58,869 bases of DNA from Acidimicrobiia bacterium (GTDB taxonomy: Bacteria > Actinomycetota > Acidimicrobiia > Acidimicrobiales > Bin134): the NCBI GenBank assembly GCA_022827405.1, contig JAJDTA010000073.1:1-58869 (forward strand). The letters run 5' to 3'. The number at the start of each line of letters is the position of its first letter. Within the stretch, counting starts at the first letter, position 1. Position numbers and translations under genes: made by a program. The notes beneath the pieces were generated by a model that saw nothing but the letters and a program-made list of their open reading frames with translations, was not told the DNA's origin and made no database searches. Positions 4,207 to 32,990 of the stretch are shown here, piece by piece.

Positions 4207-6522
4207 TTAGCTGGGAAGGCCGTGTCCGATGGGCTTGGTCACTCCGGCATCGTGCAGTCGGGTGACCTCCTCATCTTCGATACCAAGTTCACCCAAAATT
4301 TTCGCTGTGGCCCAACCGAGGGGGAGTGAGGAGGCCGCGGGGGTGGAAGCAGACGAGAATTGCATGGTCGGCCCGGCCCGCCAGTACGAGCCCAGGCCGT
4401 CTTGTTCGGCTTCAACGGCCACGCCGCTGGTCCGCATGTGATTCTCGTTCAACATGTTGTGCAAGAAGTCACCTCGGTCAGCTTGGGCCGCGGGTACCCC
4501 GGCGGCCAGCAACCGGTCTTCCCAAGCCTCAGCCGAGTCTGAGCTGAGCACTTTGGTCAACTGGGTTGCGATTTCTGGGGAGGGCACCTTGGGAAGCTCG
4601 ACGCCGAGCACCGTGCCCAGGGCCTGACGCTCGCGGTCTCGGTGAACATCCAGCACCAGCCAGCCGTCGGCGGTCTCGTACAGCCGCTGGTAGGCGTGGA
4701 AGCCGTGTTGCCCTGAATCCACCACTGGCGCTTGGTGACCGGAGTGTTGGATCCCCCACTCGGCCACGGCGTAGGCGGTGGCGGTGAGCATGGTGGTCTC
4801 CAGCTTTTGTCCTCGTCCGGTGCGGCGGCAGGCCAGCACCCCAGCAATGATGGCCGCCGCGGTGGCCAAGGCTGCGGTGGGATCCCCGTAGGTGCGGTTG
4901 CGGGGTGGGTTCTGGTCACCCGACTCCACCACCCCGGCGCCGGCAATGGCGTTGGGTGACGAGTGGAAGCCGGCCTTGTGGGCCCACGGTCCCTGGCTGC
5001 CAAAGCACGAGGCATACACATAGAGCAGGCGGGGGTTGCGGGCCATCACGGAATCGGCGTCGATGCCTAGCCGCTCGGGCGTCCCCGGCCGGAAGTTGTG
5101 CAGGAACACGTCGGCCTTGTCGACCAGCCGATTCAGGATGTCGAGGCCTTCAGGAGTCTTGAGGTCTAACACGATGGACTCTTTGCCCACCTGCGACTTT
5201 ACGTAGTCGGTGATCCAGTTGCGCCGTCCCGGATCGCCAGTCGGCGGCTCCACTTTGATGATCCGAGCCCCGGCTTCGGCCAGAATCGTGGCGGCGAACG
5301 GGCAGGCGTAGAAGTAGCCGACGTCCAATACGGTCACATCGGCCAGGGGCTGCTCACCAGCGTCGTCGGCTCGGTCAGCAGTAAGGGTGAACGACGGCAT
5401 CGACGGCCAACTGCTCAGCACTTCGTCGGTGTGCTCGCCGAGTCGGGGAGCGGGTGGGCCTACTACCGATGGCGTGTCGGAGTACAGCCCGAGGGGGCCG
5501 ATCTGCACCGTCGGTCCGATGTCGGGATCGAGCACTTCTTGACGCCGCCCATTCTCGGTGCATTGGGAATGATCCAGGAACTCCCGGGGCGCCAGGAACG
5601 GATCGCCCCCAATGTCGTTGGCCGAGAAGACCTCCATCCACTCCTCGGCGGTGCGCTCTTGCATTCCGGCCTGGATGGCCTCGATGGCCTCGGCCAGCCG
5701 CGCCTCGCTGGGCCACAAGTCGGGGGCGTTGGCCAGCTCAGGGTCATCCAGCAATATCTCGAGCCCCAGCTCGACCAGCCACCGGCGGTAGTGGTGAGCT
5801 TGGCGGCTGCACATCTGGATGAATCGCCCGTCTTTGGTGGGCGCGGTCATGAACGGCACCCGCATAATGCCGTAGACCTGGCCTGGCGCCGGCGGGATGT
5901 TGGTGCGATTCCCGTGACCGCTGGTCATGTCATACACACTGAGGGCATGAAGCAGGCTGGTGTGAACTCGCTGGCCTCGGCCAGTGCTTTCTCGGGCCCA
6001 AATCCCGGCCATCAACCCCACCGCAGCCAGCATCCCCGCCCCGTAGGAGGCGATGGGCACCGGGGTGAATACCGGACCGGGGCGCACACCGTCGTAGGTT
6101 GTCATGCGTCCGCTCTTGGCTGCCACGATCTGCTCGTAGCCGGGAAGGTCTCGCCACGGCCCGGATTCGCCAAAGCCGGTGATGGCGGCGTACACCAGTT
6201 GGCCGTTCAGATCATTCAAGGTCTCGTAGTCCATGCCCAGCTTGTCGGCTGTGCCCGGTCGGAACGCCTCGATCAACCCGTCGGCTGCCTGGGCCAACTC
6301 GAAGAACCGACTGCGGTCTCCGGGGTCGGCCAAATCGAGGACGGCACTCTTCTTGGCCCGGTGCCAGACGGCGAATCCGGGTTGGCCCCGGCAGGGGTCG
6401 CCGCCGGGCGGCTCGATTTTGACCACCTCGGCGCCGTTCTCGGCCAAGACCATGCCGGCAATGCCCGCGGCCGTGCCATAGCCGAGTTCAAGGATCCGCA
6501 ACCCCTCTAGGGCGGTAGCCAC
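4207..6522 (-). CDS. tandem-domain family III CoA-transferase (CaiB/BaiF type)
   Basis: A 771-residue protein made of two complete CaiB/BaiF modules, about residues 1-375 and 390-771. Both start with the family pattern (LRILELGYG...AENGAEVVKIEPP and VTVLDVGYF...AEAGARIIKVEPP) and both have the FRPGT segment and the RxxTGRGQ segment. Family III enzymes move CoA between acyl-CoA and a free acid through an Asp-acyl anhydride. The Asp is visible in the second module (YGDPTAAL) but in the first the same place reads IASYGAGML, with Ser for Asp. So only the C-terminal half is predicted to be catalytic. It is the first gene of a minus-strand group with the SDR and Dabb genes and is divergent from the HsaA-like gene. 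Confidence 0.93.
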   Translation of the reverse strand: MATALEGLRILELGYGTAAGIAGMVLAENGAEVVKIEPPGGDPCRGQPGFAVWHRAKKSAVLDLADPGDRSRFFELAQAADGLIEAFRPGTADKLGMDYETLNDLNGQLVYAAITGFGESGPWRDLPGYEQIVAAKSGRMTTYDGVRPGPVFTPVPIASYGAGMLAAVGLMAGIWARESTGRGQRVHTSLLHALSVYDMTSGHGNRTNIPPAPGQVYGIMRVPFMTAPTKDGRFIQMCSRQAHHYRRWLVELGLEILLDDPELANAPDLWPSEARLAEAIEAIQAGMQERTAEEWMEVFSANDIGGDPFLAPREFLDHSQCTENGRRQEVLDPDIGPTVQIGPLGLYSDTPSVVGPPAPRLGEHTDEVLSSWPSMPSFTLTADRADDAGEQPLADVTVLDVGYFYACPFAATILAEAGARIIKVEPPTGDPGRRNWITDYVKSQVGKESIVLDLKTPEGLDILNRLVDKADVFLHNFRPGTPERLGIDADSVMARNPRLLYVYASCFGSQGPWAHKAGFHSSPNAIAGAGVVESGDQNPPRNRTYGDPTAALATAAAIIAGVLACRRTGRGQKLETTMLTATAYAVAEWGIQHSGHQAPVVDSGQHGFHAYQRLYETADGWLVLDVHRDRERQALGTVLGVELPKVPSPEIATQLTKVLSSDSAEAWEDRLLAAGVPAAQADRGDFLHNMLNENHMRTSGVAVEAEQDGLGSYWRAGPTMQFSSASTPAASSLPLGWATAKILGELGIEDEEVTRLHDAGVTKPIGHGLPS

Positions 6523-22074: not shown

Positions 22075-24966
22075 TCAGCCGTCGCTGATGGCGATGGCGC
22101 GTTCGTCGGTGCCCAGATAGCTGGCGATCACCAGCGGGTCGTTGCGGACCTCGGAGGGAGATCCCTCGGCGATGACCTTGCCGGCCTCCAGGCAATACAC
22201 CCGGTCGCTGATGCTCATGATGAGGGGCATGTCGTGCTCGATGATCAACATGGCCGCCCCCAGTTCTCGGCGGATGTTGACGATGAGGGGGCCGAAGGCC
22301 TCGGTTTCCCGCTGGGCCACTCCAGCGGTGGGCTCGTCGAGGCAAAGCACCCGGGTGCCCAGGGCCAGCAACCCGGTGATCTCGACGATGCGACGGGTCC
22401 CGGTGGACAGATCGCTGATATAGGAGTCCGCGTAGCGCCCTAGCCCCAGGTAGTCGATGAGCTCGTCGGCCTCGGCCCGACGCCGCCGTTCCAAGGCAAA
22501 GGTGTGGGGGAGGTGTAGAGCGGTGCTCACAAGGGGCGTGCGGCCCCGGGCCTCCAAGGCCACCTGCACCGTTTCTCGAACCGTCAGCTCCGGGAACAGC
22601 GACGCGGTCTGGAAGGTGCGCCCCAATCCGGCTCGGGCCCGACGGGATGCCGAAAGCCGGGTGATGTCGGTGCCGAGCAGCTCTACTCGGCCGCTGGACG
22701 GCACGTAGCCTCCCACCGCATTCATGAACGTGGACTTTCCGGCGCCGTTGGTGCCGATGAGGCCCACAATCTCGTCGGGATGGACCACCACGGTGGCCTC
22801 CGAAACCGCATTCACTCCGCCGAACCGCACGCTGATGTCGTGCCCGGCCAGCATGGGATCGGTGGCGGGCCGGGGATCGTCAACCCGGGTCAGGCTGGTG
22901 GGAGCGGCTTGGACGGTCTTGCCGCCGGGATCGGGTCCGAGTCGCCGCTCGGCCAAGCCGATGAGGGCGTTTCGCGCGCTGTAGCCGATCTGAATGAGTC
23001 CGCCCGGAAAGTACATCAGCACCAGCAGCAGCCCGATGCTGGAGGAGAACAGGGCAACGGTTTCCGCATTGTTGAACAGATTCGGAAGGCCGTAGACCCA
23101 AATCGCCCCCAGCACCGCGCCAACCGACGAGCCGAGACCCCCAATCACCACCATGCCCACAAGCTGCAATGAGTCCTCCACCTGGAAGAACCGCTCGCTG
23201 ATCGGGACGTTCTGCACTAGGCCGGCCAGCATTGCTCCGCCCAATCCGGCGATGCCCCCGGCCAACGCGAACGAAGCCAGCTTGGAGCGCACCGGCCCAA
23301 TCGTGTAGCCCGAGGCGGAGTCGGCGTTGTCGCGCACTGCGATGATGGTGCGGCCAACCCCCGATCGACGCAGTCGGCTGACGATGATCACCGCAATCAG
23401 CAATAGGGCCAGACACACGTAGTAGTAGGTCTTCTGCGACTTGAGGTCGAGGCCGAACAGCTCGCCCCGGCGGAACGACACCGACGACGTGTTGCCCCCG
23501 GTGAAGAACGGCCTGCGATAGAGGTACTGCTGGGCGGCCAGGGCGAAGACAAAGGTGGTAACCGCCAGATAGAGGCCGCGAACTCGAAGTGATCCGACCC
23601 CGATCACCGCCGCCACTAGTGCGGAGAACAGCGCCGTCACCGGAATGGCCACCATGAACGGGATGCCGCCGGTCTCGAACTGGACGTCGAAAAAGTCGTA
23701 CGACAGCGCGTCGCCGGGCAAGAATCCGGTTCCCACGGTGAAGTCCATGGACAGTCCCCGTTTGAGGCTCGCGGCGAACAGCGCCCCCATGCCGGCGAAG
23801 GTCATCTGGGCCAGGGAGAGCTGGCCGGCCCAGCCCGTGATGATGGTGACCGACAGTCCGGCGACCGCAAAGCACAACACGGTGGCGTACAGCAACTGGC
23901 GGGAAGGCAGGTTGGAGATGCCGGGGAGCTGCACTAGCACGATGCCGAGCACCAAAAGCGCCCCCAAGGCGATCTTGGACAGGTGTCGCAGCCACCACAC
24001 CTGGCGCAGCCGCTCGGGGATGGCCCGCACCTTGGGGGCGAATGAGAACACACCGGTCTCGCCCTGGCCGCGGCTCTGGAAATACACCGCCACCAGCACG
24101 GCCAAGAAGATGACGAAGTCGATGAGACCGGTTTCGGTGAAGAAGTTGAACCGGAACAGGGCGTCGAGGAAACCGATCAACATCCCGGCCACCATGGCCC
24201 GCGGGAACGAGACCATCGAGGCCAGCACGGCGGCCACCATGGCCTTGCCCAGCGTCTGCGGTCCCAGGTTGGCCAGGCCGGCAATCTGTCCGGTGGACCC
24301 GGAGAGCATGATCATCGACAGCGAGGCCAACAGCCCGGCCATCACCCATACGAAGGTGGACACTGTTTTGGGATTGATCCCCGACAGCCGGGAGAGGTCG
24401 GGATTGTTGGCCGACGCGGCCACCGATTTGCCGAACGAGGTTCGGTTCATCAACCAGCCCAACAGCAGGGCCAATACCGGCACCGCTATGAGGATGATGA
24501 GCTGGGGACCGCGTACCCGGATTTCGGTAAACCAAACGTCTTCCCAGACTGAACCGACCACCACCGGATATTTCTGGCCGGCGGCCTCGATGTCGGGAAG
24601 CTGGGAGATCACCAGCTGGGCCAGCTGGGCGATGCCGACCGTGGCCACCAACACGATCACTCGGGGAGAGTTGAACAGCCGACGGATCACCGTCAGCTCC
24701 ACGGCGGCGGCGAACAAGACCCCCAGCACCAGCGACAGCGCCAGTGCCAACCAGAATCCCCAGCCGTAGTTCAGCACCAATAGCGCCATCATCGAGGCGG
24801 AGATGATGCCCATGTTGCCCACCGCGAAGTTGATGACCCGGGTGGACCGGTAGATCAGGACGATCCCCAACGCCACCAGCCCGGTCACCAGGCCGTTGAC
24901 CACTCCGTTGAAGGCCAACTGCTGCGTGATCCAGGTCCCGACCACCGACGCGGAGGCGAATTCCAT
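22075..24966 (-). CDS. LivH-LivM-LivG fusion: branched-chain-type ABC permease-permease-ATPase
   Basis: A 963-residue polypeptide holding what are normally three subunits. LivH-like membrane part at about 1-300 (starts FNGVVNGLVTGLVALGIVLI), LivM-like part at about 320-665 (LSLAQMTFAGMGALFAA, VRGLYLAVTTFVFALAAQQ), and LivG-like ATPase from about 710: Walker A GTNGAGKS (738-745), signature LSTGTRR (853-859) instead of LSGGQ, and Walker B LCLDEP. The signature variant is shared with the paralogue at 43560. The only ATPase partner nearby is the LivF domain fused to an MFS protein in the preceding gene, with which the ATG overlaps the stop (TGATG). The binding protein is probably the one encoded divergently at 28884. 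Confidence 0.95.
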   Translation of the reverse strand: MEFASASVVGTWITQQLAFNGVVNGLVTGLVALGIVLIYRSTRVINFAVGNMGIISASMMALLVLNYGWGFWLALALSLVLGVLFAAAVELTVIRRLFNSPRVIVLVATVGIAQLAQLVISQLPDIEAAGQKYPVVVGSVWEDVWFTEIRVRGPQLIILIAVPVLALLLGWLMNRTSFGKSVAASANNPDLSRLSGINPKTVSTFVWVMAGLLASLSMIMLSGSTGQIAGLANLGPQTLGKAMVAAVLASMVSFPRAMVAGMLIGFLDALFRFNFFTETGLIDFVIFLAVLVAVYFQSRGQGETGVFSFAPKVRAIPERLRQVWWLRHLSKIALGALLVLGIVLVQLPGISNLPSRQLLYATVLCFAVAGLSVTIITGWAGQLSLAQMTFAGMGALFAASLKRGLSMDFTVGTGFLPGDALSYDFFDVQFETGGIPFMVAIPVTALFSALVAAVIGVGSLRVRGLYLAVTTFVFALAAQQYLYRRPFFTGGNTSSVSFRRGELFGLDLKSQKTYYYVCLALLLIAVIIVSRLRRSGVGRTIIAVRDNADSASGYTIGPVRSKLASFALAGGIAGLGGAMLAGLVQNVPISERFFQVEDSLQLVGMVVIGGLGSSVGAVLGAIWVYGLPNLFNNAETVALFSSSIGLLLVLMYFPGGLIQIGYSARNALIGLAERRLGPDPGGKTVQAAPTSLTRVDDPRPATDPMLAGHDISVRFGGVNAVSEATVVVHPDEIVGLIGTNGAGKSTFMNAVGGYVPSSGRVELLGTDITRLSASRRARAGLGRTFQTASLFPELTVRETVQVALEARGRTPLVSTALHLPHTFALERRRRAEADELIDYLGLGRYADSYISDLSTGTRRIVEITGLLALGTRVLCLDEPTAGVAQRETEAFGPLIVNIRRELGAAMLIIEHDMPLIMSISDRVYCLEAGKVIAEGSPSEVRNDPLVIASYLGTDERAIAISDG

Positions 24967-27167
24967 CAGCCGCCCTCGGTGCCCAGGAAGACCGCCCGAG
25001 CCAGATCGTCTCGTTCGGCCAGCTCCTGGGCCGGGCCCTCAAAGCGCACCTGCCCCTTTTCCAGGAACACGGCCCGGTCGGAGATGGCCAGCGCCACATT
25101 CAGCGACTGCTCCACGATGATCATGGTCTGGCCCTGGTCTTTGAGCTCCTCGACTGTCTCCAAGAGCGACTGCACCACCACTGGGGCCAATCCCAGCGAC
25201 AGCTCGTCGATCATCAGCACCTCGGGTTCGTGCAGCATCACCCGGGCCAGCGCCAGCATCTGCTGCTGGCCACCCGAGAGGTTTCCGGCCCGCTCGTTGG
25301 GCCGTTTGCCGAGGTCGGGGAACATTTCGAGCACCTTTTCGATGCGCCGGTCCCGGTCGCTGGCATCCCTGCGGTAGGCGTAGGCCCCCATAAGCAGGTT
25401 GTCGCGAATCGAGAGTTCGCTCCACACCCCGGCTCCGCCGGGCAGCATGTGCAGGCCCATGGCGGCCCGCTGCTCGGGGGTGGCATAGGTGATGGTTTGG
25501 CCATGCAGACGCACCACTCCCCGCTCCGGGGTGACCAGCCCGGTGATCACTTTGAGCGCGGTGGACTTCCCCGCACCGTTGGTGCCCAACAAAGCCAGCG
25601 TCTCCTGTTTGCGCACTTCGAATCCAAGATCGAAGAGAACCTGTACCTGTCCATAGCTGAAATCAACATCGACCAACTGGATGGCCGGGATGTCGTCGGG
25701 GTCGGTTTCAGCTTGGCGGCGCTCCTCGTTCTGTTCTTCCCGCAGCTCGCCGACCACCAGCGAGAGATCGCGCCGCAGCCGGCCGGCCCCTCGCAGCACG
25801 AAGTAGGCGCCGATAGGCATGGCTACCGCGGTGATGATGGTGATGGCGGTTTGCTCGCCCAATTCGTTTTGGAGGAAGCCGGCGATGATGCTGCCTCCCA
25901 CACCGCCCACCATGACCATGAAGAAGGTCAAGATGGCGGTGCCCATGCCCCGCAGCCGGTAGGGGAATACCGCTTGCATGGCGGGCTGCACCATGGCAAA
26001 GGCCCCACCCAGGAAGGTGGAGTTGATGGCGGACAGAATCATGAACAAGGCGAGATTGGGCATGGCGTACTGGATGGGAACCAGCACGCCGATGGGCAAC
26101 AAGAGGATGCCGATGAGCCGCACTGCCCGGTCGGGGTCCCTTCGGAAGGTGGCATCGAACCGGCGCCCGACAAACGGCAGGAGCAAGATCAGCCCGAACC
26201 CTGCGGGGGCAACCGCCAGGCCGCGCTCCAAGGCGTCGAGGCCGAATTCTTCCTCCAAGAAGAACGACTGAATCGAGCCGGCTGGGAAAAGGGCGAAGCC
26301 CATGGCGGCGAACGCGATGGTCATGTTGCGGATGGTGTCGATGTTCCAGATGCGGGTGAAGGCGGCCTCCACCGAGATAGGCATCTTTTTGTCTTGTTTC
26401 AGCCCGGCGCCCAGCACATGCTCTTGTTCCCATTGGCCACGGGGCGGCTCTCGCAAGAAGAAGGCCAAGAAGGCCAGGGCGGCAGTGGGCAGCCCCAGCA
26501 GATAGAAGGCCCAACGCCAGCCGTCGTCGCCGCCGATCCACACCGCGATGCCCCCGGCCAGGATGGGGCTGACTGCTGAGAAGACGCGCCCCACCCCGGC
26601 GTTGGTGGCGTACATGCGGCCCCGGGTCTGAAGCGGATAGGTGTCGGCCAGCATGCTGGGATGCACGGTGATGGTGTTGGCTTTGGACATGCCGGCGAAG
26701 AACCGCATGAAGAAGAACATCAGGGCGTTCACCGCCGCCCCCGACAGGGCGCTGAACGCGGCGAAGGCGCCGCTGGCGATGCCCACGATGGGACCGCGGC
26801 GGAAACGGTCGGCCAGCCAACCCATCGGCCCGGCGCCCAGCACGAAGAACATGAGCGACGCGGTGCTGATGGCAGTGATCGCCCCGTCGCTCACCCCGAA
26901 GCTCTCGCCAATGTCGGGGCCCAAGATGGCCACCGCACTGTTCTCCAGCTCGTCGAGGCTGTTCAGCGCCAGCAGCACGACGAAGGTCTGGAATCCGCCT
27001 TTGCGCAGGCCCTCCTTGAGGGTGGTCTGCTCGCCCCCCACCCCGGGCAACAAGTCGTCGGGAAACAGCACCTCGGCCTTCCGGGCGTCGCGCCGAGCAG
27101 CCTCGCCCTCGAGCACCGTTGTGGCCAGTGCGTCTATCGACTCGCCCTGGGCATGTTCCTCGGCCAA
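24966..27167 (-). CDS. MFS transporter-LivF ATPase fusion
   Basis: A 733-residue fusion. Residues about 45-485 form a major facilitator-type membrane domain (GFQTFVVLLALNSLDELENS, GWLADRFRRGP as the loop 2-3 motif, then about 12 hydrophobic segments). Residues about 494-733 form a LivF ATPase: Walker A GTNGAGKST at 528, signature LSGGQQQMLALARV at 630, Walker B VLMIDE at 650, and the LivF-type IVEQSLNVAL. MFS carriers normally use ion gradients and have no ATPase, so this architecture is unusual; a second copy is at 46433. The TTG start at 27167 has GGGGGGA shortly upstream. It is coupled to the LivHMG gene and should complete its motor. Confidence 0.92.
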   Translation of the reverse strand: MAEEHAQGESIDALATTVLEGEAARRDARKAEVLFPDDLLPGVGGEQTTLKEGLRKGGFQTFVVLLALNSLDELENSAVAILGPDIGESFGVSDGAITAISTASLMFFVLGAGPMGWLADRFRRGPIVGIASGAFAAFSALSGAAVNALMFFFMRFFAGMSKANTITVHPSMLADTYPLQTRGRMYATNAGVGRVFSAVSPILAGGIAVWIGGDDGWRWAFYLLGLPTAALAFLAFFLREPPRGQWEQEHVLGAGLKQDKKMPISVEAAFTRIWNIDTIRNMTIAFAAMGFALFPAGSIQSFFLEEEFGLDALERGLAVAPAGFGLILLLPFVGRRFDATFRRDPDRAVRLIGILLLPIGVLVPIQYAMPNLALFMILSAINSTFLGGAFAMVQPAMQAVFPYRLRGMGTAILTFFMVMVGGVGGSIIAGFLQNELGEQTAITIITAVAMPIGAYFVLRGAGRLRRDLSLVVGELREEQNEERRQAETDPDDIPAIQLVDVDFSYGQVQVLFDLGFEVRKQETLALLGTNGAGKSTALKVITGLVTPERGVVRLHGQTITYATPEQRAAMGLHMLPGGAGVWSELSIRDNLLMGAYAYRRDASDRDRRIEKVLEMFPDLGKRPNERAGNLSGGQQQMLALARVMLHEPEVLMIDELSLGLAPVVVQSLLETVEELKDQGQTMIIVEQSLNVALAISDRAVFLEKGQVRFEGPAQELAERDDLARAVFLGTEGG

Positions 27168-28883: not shown

Positions 28884-30386
28884 ATGCCCGGCATGAACAG
28901 AGGTTCCAAGACCCTTAGGAAATGGTGGTGGCTGCTGGTCGCCGTGGCGTTGGTGGCCGCGGCCTGCGGCGGAAATGACGATGACAGGTCGGCCGACACC
29001 GCGGAGCCGGCCGCGGCCCAAGAGCAGACGGCTGTACCGGCTGAGGAAACCGCAGAGGAGCCCGCAGAGGAGCCCGCCGAGGTCCCCGCAGAGGAGCCTG
29101 CTGAGGAGCCCGCCGAACAACCGGCCGACGAGCCAGCCGAGGAGCCCGCCGAGGCTCCCGCAGAGCCGACACCAGCCCCCACGCCGGTGGAACTCATTGC
29201 CAGCTACCAGGGGGTAACGGAATCCGAGATCGCCATCGGCGTGGCCGCCATCGATCCGGTGCAGATCAATGAGATGTTCGGCATCGACATCGGCATCTTC
29301 CCGGTGCAGGACCTGTACGCCGCCCTGTCCGAAGACCTCAATGAGCGGGGCGGCATCCACGGCCGCAACGTTGTTGTCCATGTGGTTTCCTTCCTGCCCA
29401 TTGGAACCGCCGACAGCGAGCGGGTGTGTACCGAGTTGATCGAGGACAAGAGGGTGTTTGTGGTGATCGGCCAGTTCCTCGAAGACAACGCCCTGTGCAT
29501 TACCGAGCTGCACGGGCACCCCTACGTGGGCCACTTCGGGGAGAACACCGAGCGCCAGGAGCGGTCCAACGGCCTGTTCTTCGCCACTGAGATGAAGCAA
29601 ACCCGCCAAAGGGTCGGCGGGACAACCGAGATGATCCGGGCCGGCGATCTCGACGGATATCGCGTGGGCGTCTACTACGAGGCACCTCCCGACAAGGAGT
29701 ATGCCGATGCGGTGCAGCCATTGTTGGAAGAGGCGGGCATCAACGTCGTCGGTGTCTATTCCCCAGGTGCTCCCACCACTGACACAGTTCAGAACGAGCA
29801 GAATACCGATGCCATCTCCACTCGAATGGAGGCCGACGGGGTTGATCTGATCCTCAACCTCTCCAACGTGTACGGCATCATCGGGTCGGTACAGCGCATT
29901 GGCTGGGAGGTTCGCATTGCCCACACCAATGGACAGGCGGCCGACCGCTTGACCATCGCCGACGATCAAGGCCTTGAAGACGAGTACATGGCCCGCACCT
30001 TTGCCGTCACCACCAACAAGCCGACCAGCGAGGAAGCACTGGCCGATCCCGGCGTCCAGCAATGCCTGGCCACGTTTGAAGAGCGATCCAGCGACGAGCC
30101 CCTCGATACCACCAACGACGACATCGTCAACGGTGTGGTCAACCACTGCCGGACCTTCGCCCTCACCGTGAAGATCCTGGAGGCCGCCGGCGGCAACATC
30201 ACCCCGGAGACATTCAAGGCCGCGGCTGAGGCGCTCGGCACGTTCGACCTCCCCGCCATGATCGGGGCCAGCCTCTCGCCCGAGAAGCACTCAGCCGGGT
30301 CGCTGGTGCGCCGATACGAGTACTTCCCCGAAGTCAGAACCTACTTGCCGGTTGGCGATCCCATTCCGACCGAGCCCGTTGAGTAA
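28884..30386 (+). CDS. branched-chain-type ABC solute-binding lipoprotein (Peripla_BP_6)
   Basis: A 500-residue lipoprotein with lipobox LVAAAC (Cys28), then a long Glu-Pro-Ala repeat tether (to about residue 100) and a LivJ-like binding domain (SEIAIGVAAIDPVQ, LNERGGIHGRNVVVHVV, KRVFVVIGQF, GYRVGVYYEAPP). The ATG at 28884 follows GGGAGAAAG; longer in-frame starts overlap the sulfatase. The LivHMG and MFS-LivF genes on the other strand have no other nearby LivJ-type binding protein, so this is probably their partner. The gene is followed after 13 bases by the redoxin-like gene. Confidence 0.93.
   Translation: MPGMNRGSKTLRKWWWLLVAVALVAAACGGNDDDRSADTAEPAAAQEQTAVPAEETAEEPAEEPAEVPAEEPAEEPAEQPADEPAEEPAEAPAEPTPAPTPVELIASYQGVTESEIAIGVAAIDPVQINEMFGIDIGIFPVQDLYAALSEDLNERGGIHGRNVVVHVVSFLPIGTADSERVCTELIEDKRVFVVIGQFLEDNALCITELHGHPYVGHFGENTERQERSNGLFFATEMKQTRQRVGGTTEMIRAGDLDGYRVGVYYEAPPDKEYADAVQPLLEEAGINVVGVYSPGAPTTDTVQNEQNTDAISTRMEADGVDLILNLSNVYGIIGSVQRIGWEVRIAHTNGQAADRLTIADDQGLEDEYMARTFAVTTNKPTSEEALADPGVQQCLATFEERSSDEPLDTTNDDIVNGVVNHCRTFALTVKILEAAGGNITPETFKAAAEALGTFDLPAMIGASLSPEKHSAGSLVRRYEYFPEVRTYLPVGDPIPTEPVE
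29041..29172 (+). repeat. Glu-Pro-Ala codon repeat in lipoprotein tether
   Basis: Degenerate repeats of the 12-base type GAGCCCGCNGAG encode EEPAEEPAE-like stretches. They form a flexible acidic spacer between the lipid anchor and the binding domain and are prone to length change. Confidence 0.7.
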
Positions 30387-30399
30387 AGGAGTTCCCGTC

Positions 30400-31428
30400 A
30401 TGACAACGATCACCGTCCTCGGCGATGAGGTCGCCACCACCACCGGAGAGTGGGCTGATGGACGGCCGCTGATCGACCCGGAAAGGCTCGCTGCTGCGGT
30501 CGGCTGGACGCTGAAGCCAGAGGGGCTCTGCCGCGACGATCAGTGCGTGCTGGTGGGAGACGGCTCGGCCATCAAAGTGGGCGACAAGCTCGACCTGGCC
30601 GCGGTGGCCAATGCGGTGGACCAGCCCACCGTGGTTGACCCCGACGCCGGCATCGTAGTGCTGGGCCAGCCCAACGGCTCTCGCCGGGCAGCCCTGCAAG
30701 ATCGCCAAGCGCCCGACTTCACTCTCTCCGATCTCGACGGCACCAGCCACAGGCTGTCGGACTACGCCGGCAAAAAGCGCCTGCTGGTCGCCTTCTCCAG
30801 TTGGTGAGGATGCGCCTTCGACCTGCCCGGGTGGCAGGAACTGTACGACGAGTTGGCCGACGACGGCTTCCTGGTTGTGGCGGTGGCCATCGACGAAAAC
30901 ATCGACGAGGTGCGGAGCCTGGCCGAAAACATCACCTATCCGGTGCTCATGGATCCCGACCACATCCTCACCGAGCTGTACGCCATCAGCAATGTGCCCG
31001 CGGTGGTGTGGATCGACGAGGAGGGTCGCATTGCCCGACCCAACGCCTACGAGTTCGGGAGCGACCTGCTCAGCGAGTTCACCGGTCGAACTTGCGCGGG
31101 CCACTTCGACCAGATCCGAGAGTGGGTCCACAACGGGGCTGTCCCCGAAGATGCCAGCAGCCAGATCGCCGATCTCAGCGATGACGAGGTCGCTGCTCGG
31201 CTGCACTTCCGCCTGGCGGCCCACTTGCGCCGCAACGGCGACGAGGATGGCGCGGCCCGGCATTTTGAGGCGGCCGCCCAACTGGCGCCGCTGGACTTCA
31301 CCGTTGTCCGGGCCGCCATGCCGCTTCAGGGCGAGAGTCCCTTCGGCGAGGAGTTCTTCAAGATTCTGGCGGAGTATGAAGCTGCTGGAACCCCGTTTCA
31401 CGGCATCATTCCGGCCAGCGAGGCTTGA
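30400..31428 (+). CDS. TlpA/redoxin-like protein, probable selenoprotein (in-frame TGA = Sec136)
   Basis: Read through the TGA at 30805-30807, the gene encodes 342 residues. Residues 1-105 are an unassigned domain (EGLCRDDQCVLVGDG). Residues about 108-235 are a TlpA/AhpC-type thioredoxin fold: APDFTLSDLDG, LSDYAGKKRLLVAFSSW, then TGA, then GCAFDLPGWQELYDELADDG, and the cis-Pro strand NVPAVVWIDEEGRIA. The TGA stands where the family has the first redox Cys after Trp, giving W-U-G-C. Reading frame and codon use continue unchanged after it, and a stem-loop of the bacterial SECIS kind follows. A helical, TPR-like tail ends the protein. AAGGAG precedes the ATG. A truncating mutation is the alternative. 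The stop overlaps the next start. Confidence 0.75.
30808..30838 (+). promoter_or_regulatory. putative bacterial SECIS element
   Basis: Immediately after the in-frame TGA, CCTGCC (30822-30827) and GGCAGG (30833-30838) form a perfect 6-bp stem with a five-base loop CGGGT. The loop lies 20-24 bases after the TGA and has G at its second position, which fits the known bacterial SECIS pattern (GC-rich apical stem, small G-containing loop, 16-37 bases from UGA). The stem bases are also coding. Confidence 0.6.
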
Positions 31429-32990
31429 TGATCGTCCACTCCAGCCCGTTGCCCGATGAGCCGCTGAGCTCGCGGCCAGTGTCCGGGTTCGTGCTGGAAC
31501 GGGCCGGGGAACTGGCCGACAAGGAGGCGGTGATCGACGGGCCGGGGGAGTGGTCGCTCACGTTCGGCCAGCTTGAGCAGGCGGTTTACTCCCTGGCTGG
31601 GGGACTGGCCGCCGACGGGTTTCAGCGGGGAGACGTGGTCGCGCTTATCGCGCCCAATTCCCCGTGGTATCCGGTGGTGTTCCACGCGGTGGCCGTCGCA
31701 GGAGGGGCGGTCACCACGGTCAATCCCACCTACGGAGCAGAGGAGATCGCCTTTCAGCTCACCGACTCGCAGGCGAGGAGGGTTTTCGCCGCTGGTGGGT
31801 TTGCCGCTCAGACCCGCGAGGCCATGGACCAGGCCGGTGTGGCGGGTGATTTGGTGGTGATCGACAGCGACAGCCCGACCGAGGGCGTTCCCATGCAGTC
31901 GCTGATGGGAGACCCGATCGCCCAGGTTGACGTAGATCCCCACGACGACGTGGTGGTCCTGCCCTACTCCTCGGGCACCACCGGGTTGCCCAAGGGGGTA
32001 ATGCTCACCCATGCCAATCTGGTGAACAACATCGAGCAGTGCGCCTCGTCGGTGGCGTCCCAGGCCAGCGATGTGGTGTTGGCAGTGCTGCCGTTCTTCC
32101 ACATCTACGGCATGCAAGTGGTAATGAACGATCAACTGCACCACGGGGCCACGCTGGTGACCATGCCCCGGTTCGACTTGGCTCAGGCGCTGTCGTTGAT
32201 CGAGCGCCATCAGGTGACCCGGTTCTTCGCCGTTCCCCCCATTGTGCTGGCCCTGGCCAAGCACCCGGCAGTGGCTGATTTTGATTTGTCGTCGCTGCGC
32301 CAGGTGCTGTCGGGAGCGGCGCCGCTGGGGGCCGAAGTAGCCGAGGAGGCATCGGCCCGAATCGGCTGCGAGGTGGTGCAGGGCTATGGAATGACCGAGC
32401 TCAGCCCGATCTCCCACGCCACCCCGCCGGGCAACTACAAGCCCGGTTCGGTGGGGCTGACGGCGGCTAACTCAGAGATCAGGATCGTGGACCCCAATTC
32501 CGGCCAGGATCTTCCGGCCGGTCCCGAGGGGGAATTGTGGATTCGCGGCCCCCAGGTAATGAAGGGCTACCTCAACAACCCAGAGGCCACCGCCGAGACC
32601 ATCGACCCCGACGGCTGGCTCCACACCGGCGACATCGCCCGGGTTGATGATGACGGCCATGTCTACGTCGTCGACCGGCTGAAGGAGCTCATCAAGGTGA
32701 AGGGATTCCAAGTGGCCCCCGCCGAGTTGGAGGCCCTGCTGGTGGACCATCCGCAGATCACCGATGCCGCGGTGGTCGGTCGAACCGACGACGAGAGCGG
32801 GGAAGTGCCGCTGGCGTTCGTGGTGGCCGTGGCTGATTCCGGCCTTGATGAGGAGGCGGTCAAGGCCTTCGTGGCTAGCCATGTGGCCACCTATAAGCAC
32901 TTGGGTGAGGTGCGGTTTGCCGAGGCCATTCCCAAGTCGGCTTCGGGCAAGATCCTCCGCCGGGAACTGAGAGAGCTGATCGGTGGCTGA
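31428..32990 (+). CDS. AMP-forming acyl-CoA synthetase (4-coumarate-CoA ligase-like)
   Basis: A 520-residue ANL-superfamily ligase. The P-loop is YSSGTTGLPKGVMLTH, the adenine-binding segment GYGMTELSPIS, the hinge region GWLHTGDIA with DRLKELIKVKGFQV, and the C-terminal catalytic Lys is in PKSASGKILRREL. It activates a carboxylic acid, likely an aryl or fatty acid, to its CoA ester through an acyl adenylate. The ATG overlaps the stop of the upstream gene (TGATG). It supplies CoA esters for the beta-oxidation-like enzymes encoded nearby, such as the enoyl-CoA hydratase at 33463. Confidence 0.95.
   Translation: MIVHSSPLPDEPLSSRPVSGFVLERAGELADKEAVIDGPGEWSLTFGQLEQAVYSLAGGLAADGFQRGDVVALIAPNSPWYPVVFHAVAVAGGAVTTVNPTYGAEEIAFQLTDSQARRVFAAGGFAAQTREAMDQAGVAGDLVVIDSDSPTEGVPMQSLMGDPIAQVDVDPHDDVVVLPYSSGTTGLPKGVMLTHANLVNNIEQCASSVASQASDVVLAVLPFFHIYGMQVVMNDQLHHGATLVTMPRFDLAQALSLIERHQVTRFFAVPPIVLALAKHPAVADFDLSSLRQVLSGAAPLGAEVAEEASARIGCEVVQGYGMTELSPISHATPPGNYKPGSVGLTAANSEIRIVDPNSGQDLPAGPEGELWIRGPQVMKGYLNNPEATAETIDPDGWLHTGDIARVDDDGHVYVVDRLKELIKVKGFQVAPAELEALLVDHPQITDAAVVGRTDDESGEVPLAFVVAVADSGLDEEAVKAFVASHVATYKHLGEVRFAEAIPKSASGKILRRELRELIGG

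Follow-up and report, generated by a model that had tools for sequence, protein, structure and literature searches.

Thiol-disulfide oxidoreductases of the ResA/TlpA type carry a CxxC active site together with an export signal or membrane anchor. A selenoprotein kind with the motif UGC has been recorded several times. One UXC member of a Prx-like family was already shown in 2005 (PMC1088965), and the family table of a 2008 survey of ocean DNA lists "Prx-like (UGC-containing)", assigned to pfam00578, among 51 previously described families, counting 855 Cys homologues and, across 15 samples, 46 selenoproteins (PMC2398784). PMC9312934 likewise lists a UGC-containing kind, and PMC13188914 (2026) includes it as a UGC-containing TlpA disulfide reductase family protein. 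We found no paper on selenoproteins or selenocysteine under the stem Acidimicrobi-, nothing combining any two of WAxxUGC, ResA-like and selenoprotein and, judged from listings, no description of the clade treated below; PMC12013277 makes no mention of redoxin, ResA, TlpA, AhpC, Actino or sponge.

Here we examined a stretch of 58,869 nucleotides (the window) from an Acidimicrobiia bacterium (GCA_022827405.1), in which an actinobacterial gene that an internal stop codon seems to break is very probably whole and codes for a redox protein containing selenium. Translation of positions 30400 to 31428 on the plus strand gives 135 residues ending in FSSW, a TGA, Gly-Cys and then 204 further residues. 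This is a single open frame but for the TGA, which is its only internal stop and lies exactly where the original prediction had placed it, within the motif W-U-G-C (U-G-C being residues 136-138). The features of the locus are as follows.

30386 to 30391, plus strand: AAGGAG, 8 nt upstream of the ATG, on direct reading a probable ribosome-binding site.
30400 to 31428, plus strand: predicted selenoprotein gene, complete, 342 residues followed by the TGA stop at 31426-31428.
30400 to 30693, plus strand: N-terminal domain, about residues 1-98.
30529 to 30546, plus strand: C44-x4-C49, a cysteine pair invariant in 24 of 24 sequences.
30703 to 31035, plus strand: redoxin domain of AhpC-TSA or ResA/TlpA type, spanning the TGA, from Pfam and PDB profile matches.
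30805 to 30807, plus strand: in-frame TGA, codon 136, predicted to be read as selenocysteine from translation, conservation, selection and association with selB.
30811 to 30813, plus strand: Cys138 of W-U-G-C, invariant in 24 of 24 sequences, probable resolving cysteine.
30822 to 30838, plus strand: hairpin CCTGCC-CGGGT-GGCAGG, probable SECIS element, from covariation, synonymous conservation and published rules.
31195 to 31290, plus strand: TPR-like helical repeat, residues 266-297, below the Pfam cut-off (21.9 of 27 bits).
31428 to 32990, plus strand: acyl-CoA ligase (AMP-binding enzyme) from a domain match, its start overlapping the preceding stop (TGATG).

Pfam AhpC-TSA matches residues 102-212 at 2.1e-16 (60.4 bits against a cut-off of 26) and Pfam Redoxin matches the same residues at 8.5e-14, also over its cut-off, so that one domain extends across residue 136 as had been claimed. 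When 24 family members were used for a profile search of the PDB, the best redoxin matches were ResA, TlpA and related thioredoxin-family proteins (2f9s, 1st9 and 1jfu among others), which bears out a TlpA/AhpC-like fold; the very top match was an engineered TPR protein, reached through the repeat-like end. Twenty positions are invariant in these 24 members, including W36, K39, C44, C49, U/C136, G137 and C138. A structure prediction from six sequences was poor (pLDDT 48.9), and no claim made here rests on it.

By domain and motif, the predicted protein is a member of the known UGC-containing AhpC/TlpA-type selenoproteins. It shares with Prx-like (UGC-containing) an AhpC-TSA domain over the cut-off and the UGC motif, a likeness drawn from the features that the table of the 2008 survey gives. 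The original prediction had called the selenoprotein new; as a kind it is not, having been listed since 2008, and NCBI has a model for WAxxUGC proteins. That model, NF041054 (WAxxUGC_long, ResA-like WAxxUGC motif-containing protein), is the nearest curated one and gave the best NCBIfam match (2.1e-61). Its members have an N-terminal CxxxxC domain, a (W/Y)-U-G-C redoxin domain and a helical end in the same order, but the window protein differs in the length of the part after the redoxin domain and scores 208.2 bits, below the cut-off of 300. NF041054 members over the cut-off occur in 5 of 41 genomes, in seven matches with one TGA each. In a tree of 79 proteins (56 from outside the genus, 14 of the 17 same-genus copies and 9 of the WAxxUGC group), a 99% branch parts the window's side (70 rows) from the nine WAxxUGC-group rows, six of which exceed the cut-off. 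The clade of the window adjoins WAxxUGC_long in the tree. The locus adds this clade to the probable selenoproteins; its genes appear divided when read in the ordinary way, and the window protein falls short of every NCBIfam cut-off.

Compared with ResA/TlpA oxidoreductases, to which it corresponds in fold by sequence profile, the window protein has U-x-C in place of CxxC and two extra regions, and reading of its N-terminus, MTTITVLGDEVATTTGEW, by eye revealed no hydrophobic anchor or export signal; the product is probably cytosolic. The N-terminal domain itself drew no Pfam match at E up to 0.1, and a PDB search for it gave nothing credible (best E 1.5). Of 396 genomes of the phylum, its profile matched 19, including 8 from beyond the order. 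We fetched 20 loci there and read 13 of them downstream: eleven continue into (W/Y)-TGA-GC, one into Cys (L201, genome G654), and one (L198) is cut by a contig end. In the 12 loci legible past it, the domain therefore always precedes a UGC or CGC redoxin. One locus (L197) has an additional TAG inside the N-terminal domain.

The alternative that survives best accepts a selenoprotein and changes its function from thiol-disulfide oxidoreductase to peroxidase (peroxiredoxin). Both Pfam matches over their cut-offs agree with this, and the 2008 survey table names the kind Prx-like (PMC2398784). Selenocysteine peroxiredoxins of the TxxU type share Pfam AhpC-TSA with the window protein, and the source genome has two with TGA (on contigs C14 and C123). 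The window protein, however, lacks TxxU and has Sec followed by Gly-Cys; the PxxxTxxC/U motif is absent, the residues before U136 being VAFSSW, and peroxiredoxins are far weaker relatives among solved structures than the ResA/TlpA-type redoxins. A peroxidase is accordingly possible but unlikely, and reduction of a disulfide would be somewhat favoured over that of a peroxide.

A second alternative is that UGA encodes an ordinary residue here, either tryptophan by codon reassignment or cysteine through a tRNA-Cys with a UCA anticodon. In its favour are homologues with Cys at the site and the failure to find selC in the draft assembly. Yet TGA terminates the window gene itself and five of the eight neighbouring gene models, so UGA still means stop, and selA, selB and selD of the selenium machinery are present. 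selB was found over the cut-off on contigs C226 and C163, a frame named selA from its position and sequence adjoins it on both, and selD was found over the cut-off on contig C40 (L088), itself carrying a TGA, in GAG-U. TGA homologues, moreover, track selB, as detailed below. We rejected UGA reassignment on these grounds and consider an ordinary residue very improbable.

The search for selA, selB, selC and selD proposed with the original prediction thus succeeded for three of the four. No tRNA-Sec passed the cut-off in the draft assembly (150 of 803 candidates scored), and a DNA search with the tRNA-Sec of the nearest relative and its flanks gave short matches only, off the tRNA. Of 41 genomes, 29 had a tRNA-Sec over the cut-off, the source genome not being one of them. 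The nearest relative, G015, has it on its contig C60 at 5193-5284, some 16 kb away from selB. The alignment of contig C226 to that contig runs down as far as 6026, and C226 continues for 137 bases more, so that it stops about 0.6 kb short of the expected place of selC. The missing gene is best explained as an effect of the contig end, with selC a candidate for presence in the genome. Absence of selB and selC from the complete genome had been named as telling against a selenoprotein; because the contig of this draft assembly ends before the place of selC, that is not what was found.

Of the two selA-selB contigs, C163 is 99.98% identical to G015 over 5,828 bases; the long alignments of C226 to G015 are 86.6-87.3% identical, and the window is 89.9% identical to it over 13,991 bases. 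Since C163 nearly equals G015 while C226 and the window have both diverged from it, the genome to which the window belongs is better judged from C226, and C163 is probably derived from a different strain within the bin. The bin accordingly holds two selA-selB copies (L025 on C163, L024 on C226).

Four further genes of the source genome have TGA at sites of known selenoprotein types (TxxU twice, UxxC and SelD). Besides selD, these are probable selenoprotein genes for TxxU peroxiredoxin-like proteins on C14 (L002) and C123 (L003) and, on C236 (L008), for a UxxC TlpA-like protein with an N-terminus that reads as lipoprotein-like.

We also examined the distribution of the codon across the order. 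Matches at 1e-25 or better were returned by 117 of 298 genomes, a count that includes other UGC paralogues. For the outside-genus comparison we took the 57 genomes with a match at 3.3e-65 or better and retained 56, leaving out G301, whose gene lies in pieces on two contigs; Sec or Cys was assigned by reading the codon itself in each genome (G065, for example, proved to have Cys). TGA occupies the site in 41 genomes and Cys (TGC or TGT) in 15. selB was over the cut-off in 38 of the TGA genomes and missing from 3, and in the Cys genomes it was present in 2 and missing from 13 (Fisher 2.7e-8, ignoring kinship). Cysteine therefore does stand at the TGA position in relatives, as the original prediction required, and mostly in those where selB was not found. 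The three TGA genomes without selB, G229, G074 and G117, are drafts of 110, 770 and 520 contigs, respectively. The two Cys genomes with selB, G160 (L150) and G296 (L159), could represent recent Sec-to-Cys changes. G160 retains all six pairs of the hairpin and G296 five.

Kinship was considered by placing the U/C label on the tree, where it requires 6 changes, at least 4 of them on well-supported branches. Among the four independent U/C pairs on such branches, selB agrees in 3.0 and opposes in 0.1 on average; the median p is 0.25, four pairs being too few for the test to reach significance. Repeated exchange of Sec and Cys alongside the presence or absence of selB makes the family well suited to studying why selenium is retained.

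The Cys genomes also bear on the possibility that the locus holds two genes, one for an N-terminal protein that stops at the TGA and another starting at TTG 30853. Each piece is indeed an open reading frame, the listing without read-through giving 30352-30807 (151 aa) and 30853-31428 (191 aa), and ordinary gene finders would be expected to cut the selenoprotein gene in just this way. The break, however, falls in the active site of the redoxin domain, with the second frame beginning past the motif, and in all 15 Cys genomes the aligned gene runs on with no interrupting stop. A split gene was rejected for these reasons and is scarcely credible.

Still less probable is a pseudogene, in which the TGA would be a nonsense mutation or a sequencing error. 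A gene that is normal apart from a lone in-frame stop does resemble a fresh pseudogene. The source genome is a 3.77 Mb draft (237 contigs, 95.7% complete, 5.3% contaminated), the window being its contig C147. Searching 21 same-genus relatives yielded 16 full-length copies, and in the window and all 16 of these the TGA stands at the identical codon, as it does in 41 of the 56 genomes outside the genus. The remaining 5 relatives (G004, G008, G009, G016 and G021) had no such copy; G008 has another UGC paralogue with TGA. Over the 17 copies, dN/dS was 0.139 upstream of the TGA and 0.126 downstream, so that selection against amino-acid change is similar before and after it. Close protein relatives, 80-95% identical, occur in five records, all metagenome-assembled. 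With the TGA conserved across so many separately assembled genomes, we rejected a pseudogene, to which we give almost no chance. The 355-residue antisense frame at 30334-31401 on the minus strand, proposed as the real gene with the plus frame incidental, is open across the whole gene in the window and stop-free in 6 of the 17 copies, the window included, but was rejected as a negligible prospect since 11 of the 17 have one or more stops and it is the plus frame that a Pfam match and a dN/dS near 0.13 support.

We return to the selenoprotein reading and to the hairpin that would direct it. The stem arms lie at 30822-30827 and 30833-30838 around the loop at 30828-30832, and the hairpin folded on its own has an energy of -9.3 kcal/mol. 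According to the bacterial SECIS rules given in PMC13188914, the loop has 3-9 nt with a G in its first two positions, the stem 4-16 bp, the distance from the TGA is 16-37 nt and the energy -7.5 or lower. Applied to the sequence by hand, all of these agree: the loop is 5 nt (CGGGU) with G second, the stem 6 bp and the spacing from TGA to loop 20 nt, the proper distance that had been predicted.

Codon-level conservation points to the same place. Among the window and 16 same-genus copies, mean synonymous divergence across stretches of 15 codons is 0.451, and the lowest value, 0.175, belongs to the stretch that begins three codons before the TGA. In the 343-codon alignment, three or more successive invariant codons occur just once, as a run of six, +5 to +10, which holds the entire hairpin minus its last base. 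Together with the TGA kept in all 17 copies, this invariant run shows that a hairpin at this position is more than chance.

Covariation was evaluated in two sets. The first comprised 42 TGA sequences (the window and 41 from other genera; 41 distinct), in which pairing was 98.0% of 246 cells against 94.5% for shuffles and three of the six pairs had compensatory changes on both sides; neither value was matched by any of 500 shuffles. The second comprised 30 sequences (22 distinct), including same-genus copies and the WAxxUGC group. There pairing was 98.5%, a figure reached by 8 of 500 shuffles, and one pair had changes on both sides, as did 157 of 500 shuffles, so that covariation in this set is weak. 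The six-pair stem is complete in 36 of the 41 TGA genomes as against 5 of the 15 Cys genomes (Fisher 1.5e-4, kinship disregarded). Its retention in those five Cys genes means either that the protein sequence DLPGWQ partly forces the hairpin or that a remnant persists; remnant SECIS-like structures in Cys homologues have a precedent in PMC1794560. Over the 54 nt that start at the TGA, the folding energy did not improve on shuffled sequences (z +0.36), and an Rfam search of 30700-31000 gave no match at E up to 1. Support for the hairpin therefore comes from covariation and synonymous conservation, not from folding energy relative to shuffles.

Taken with selA, selB and selD in the genome and Cys homologues mostly without selB, these results strongly support the predicted selenoprotein. 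We hold selenocysteine at residue 136 to be highly probable. The best explanation of the whole, a 342-residue thiol-disulfide oxidoreductase of ResA/TlpA/AhpC type with a hairpin-directed Sec136, we regard as very likely. In the mechanism we propose, SelB and tRNA-Sec would insert selenocysteine at the UGA of codon 136 under the direction of the downstream hairpin. The selenol of U136 would then reduce a disulfide or peroxide, and Cys138 would close a selenenylsulfide with it; the cysteine two residues past U136 is present as originally described, and its resolving role is our suggestion from position. A dithiol, either the protein's own C44/C49 pair or an external thioredoxin-like reductant, would reopen the selenenylsulfide, and binding of a partner would fall to the TPR-like end. 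A more speculative and doubtful version makes the CxxxxC domain a built-in reductant, giving a single-chain selenoenzyme that carries its own electron relay and a partner-binding end, unlike stand-alone UGC redoxins. The three-part layout and the extra invariant cysteine pair make a specific redox mechanism testable.

The acyl-CoA ligase lies directly downstream of the selenoprotein gene in 15 of 16 same-genus relatives. In the four loci checked from other genera (L046-L049), only a distant ligase match (32% identical) was seen, near L048. The linkage is local and tells little of the function.

Several minor observations were made. A gene finder might annotate the antisense frame that overlies the selenoprotein gene. 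Genome G025 has five UGC-type genes or fragments with TGA, on contigs C193, C140, C164, C156 and C176 (L049, L102, L123). Elsewhere in the window, a minus-strand frame at 24966-27167 joins an MFS transporter domain and an ABC ATPase domain in what looks like an unusual fusion.
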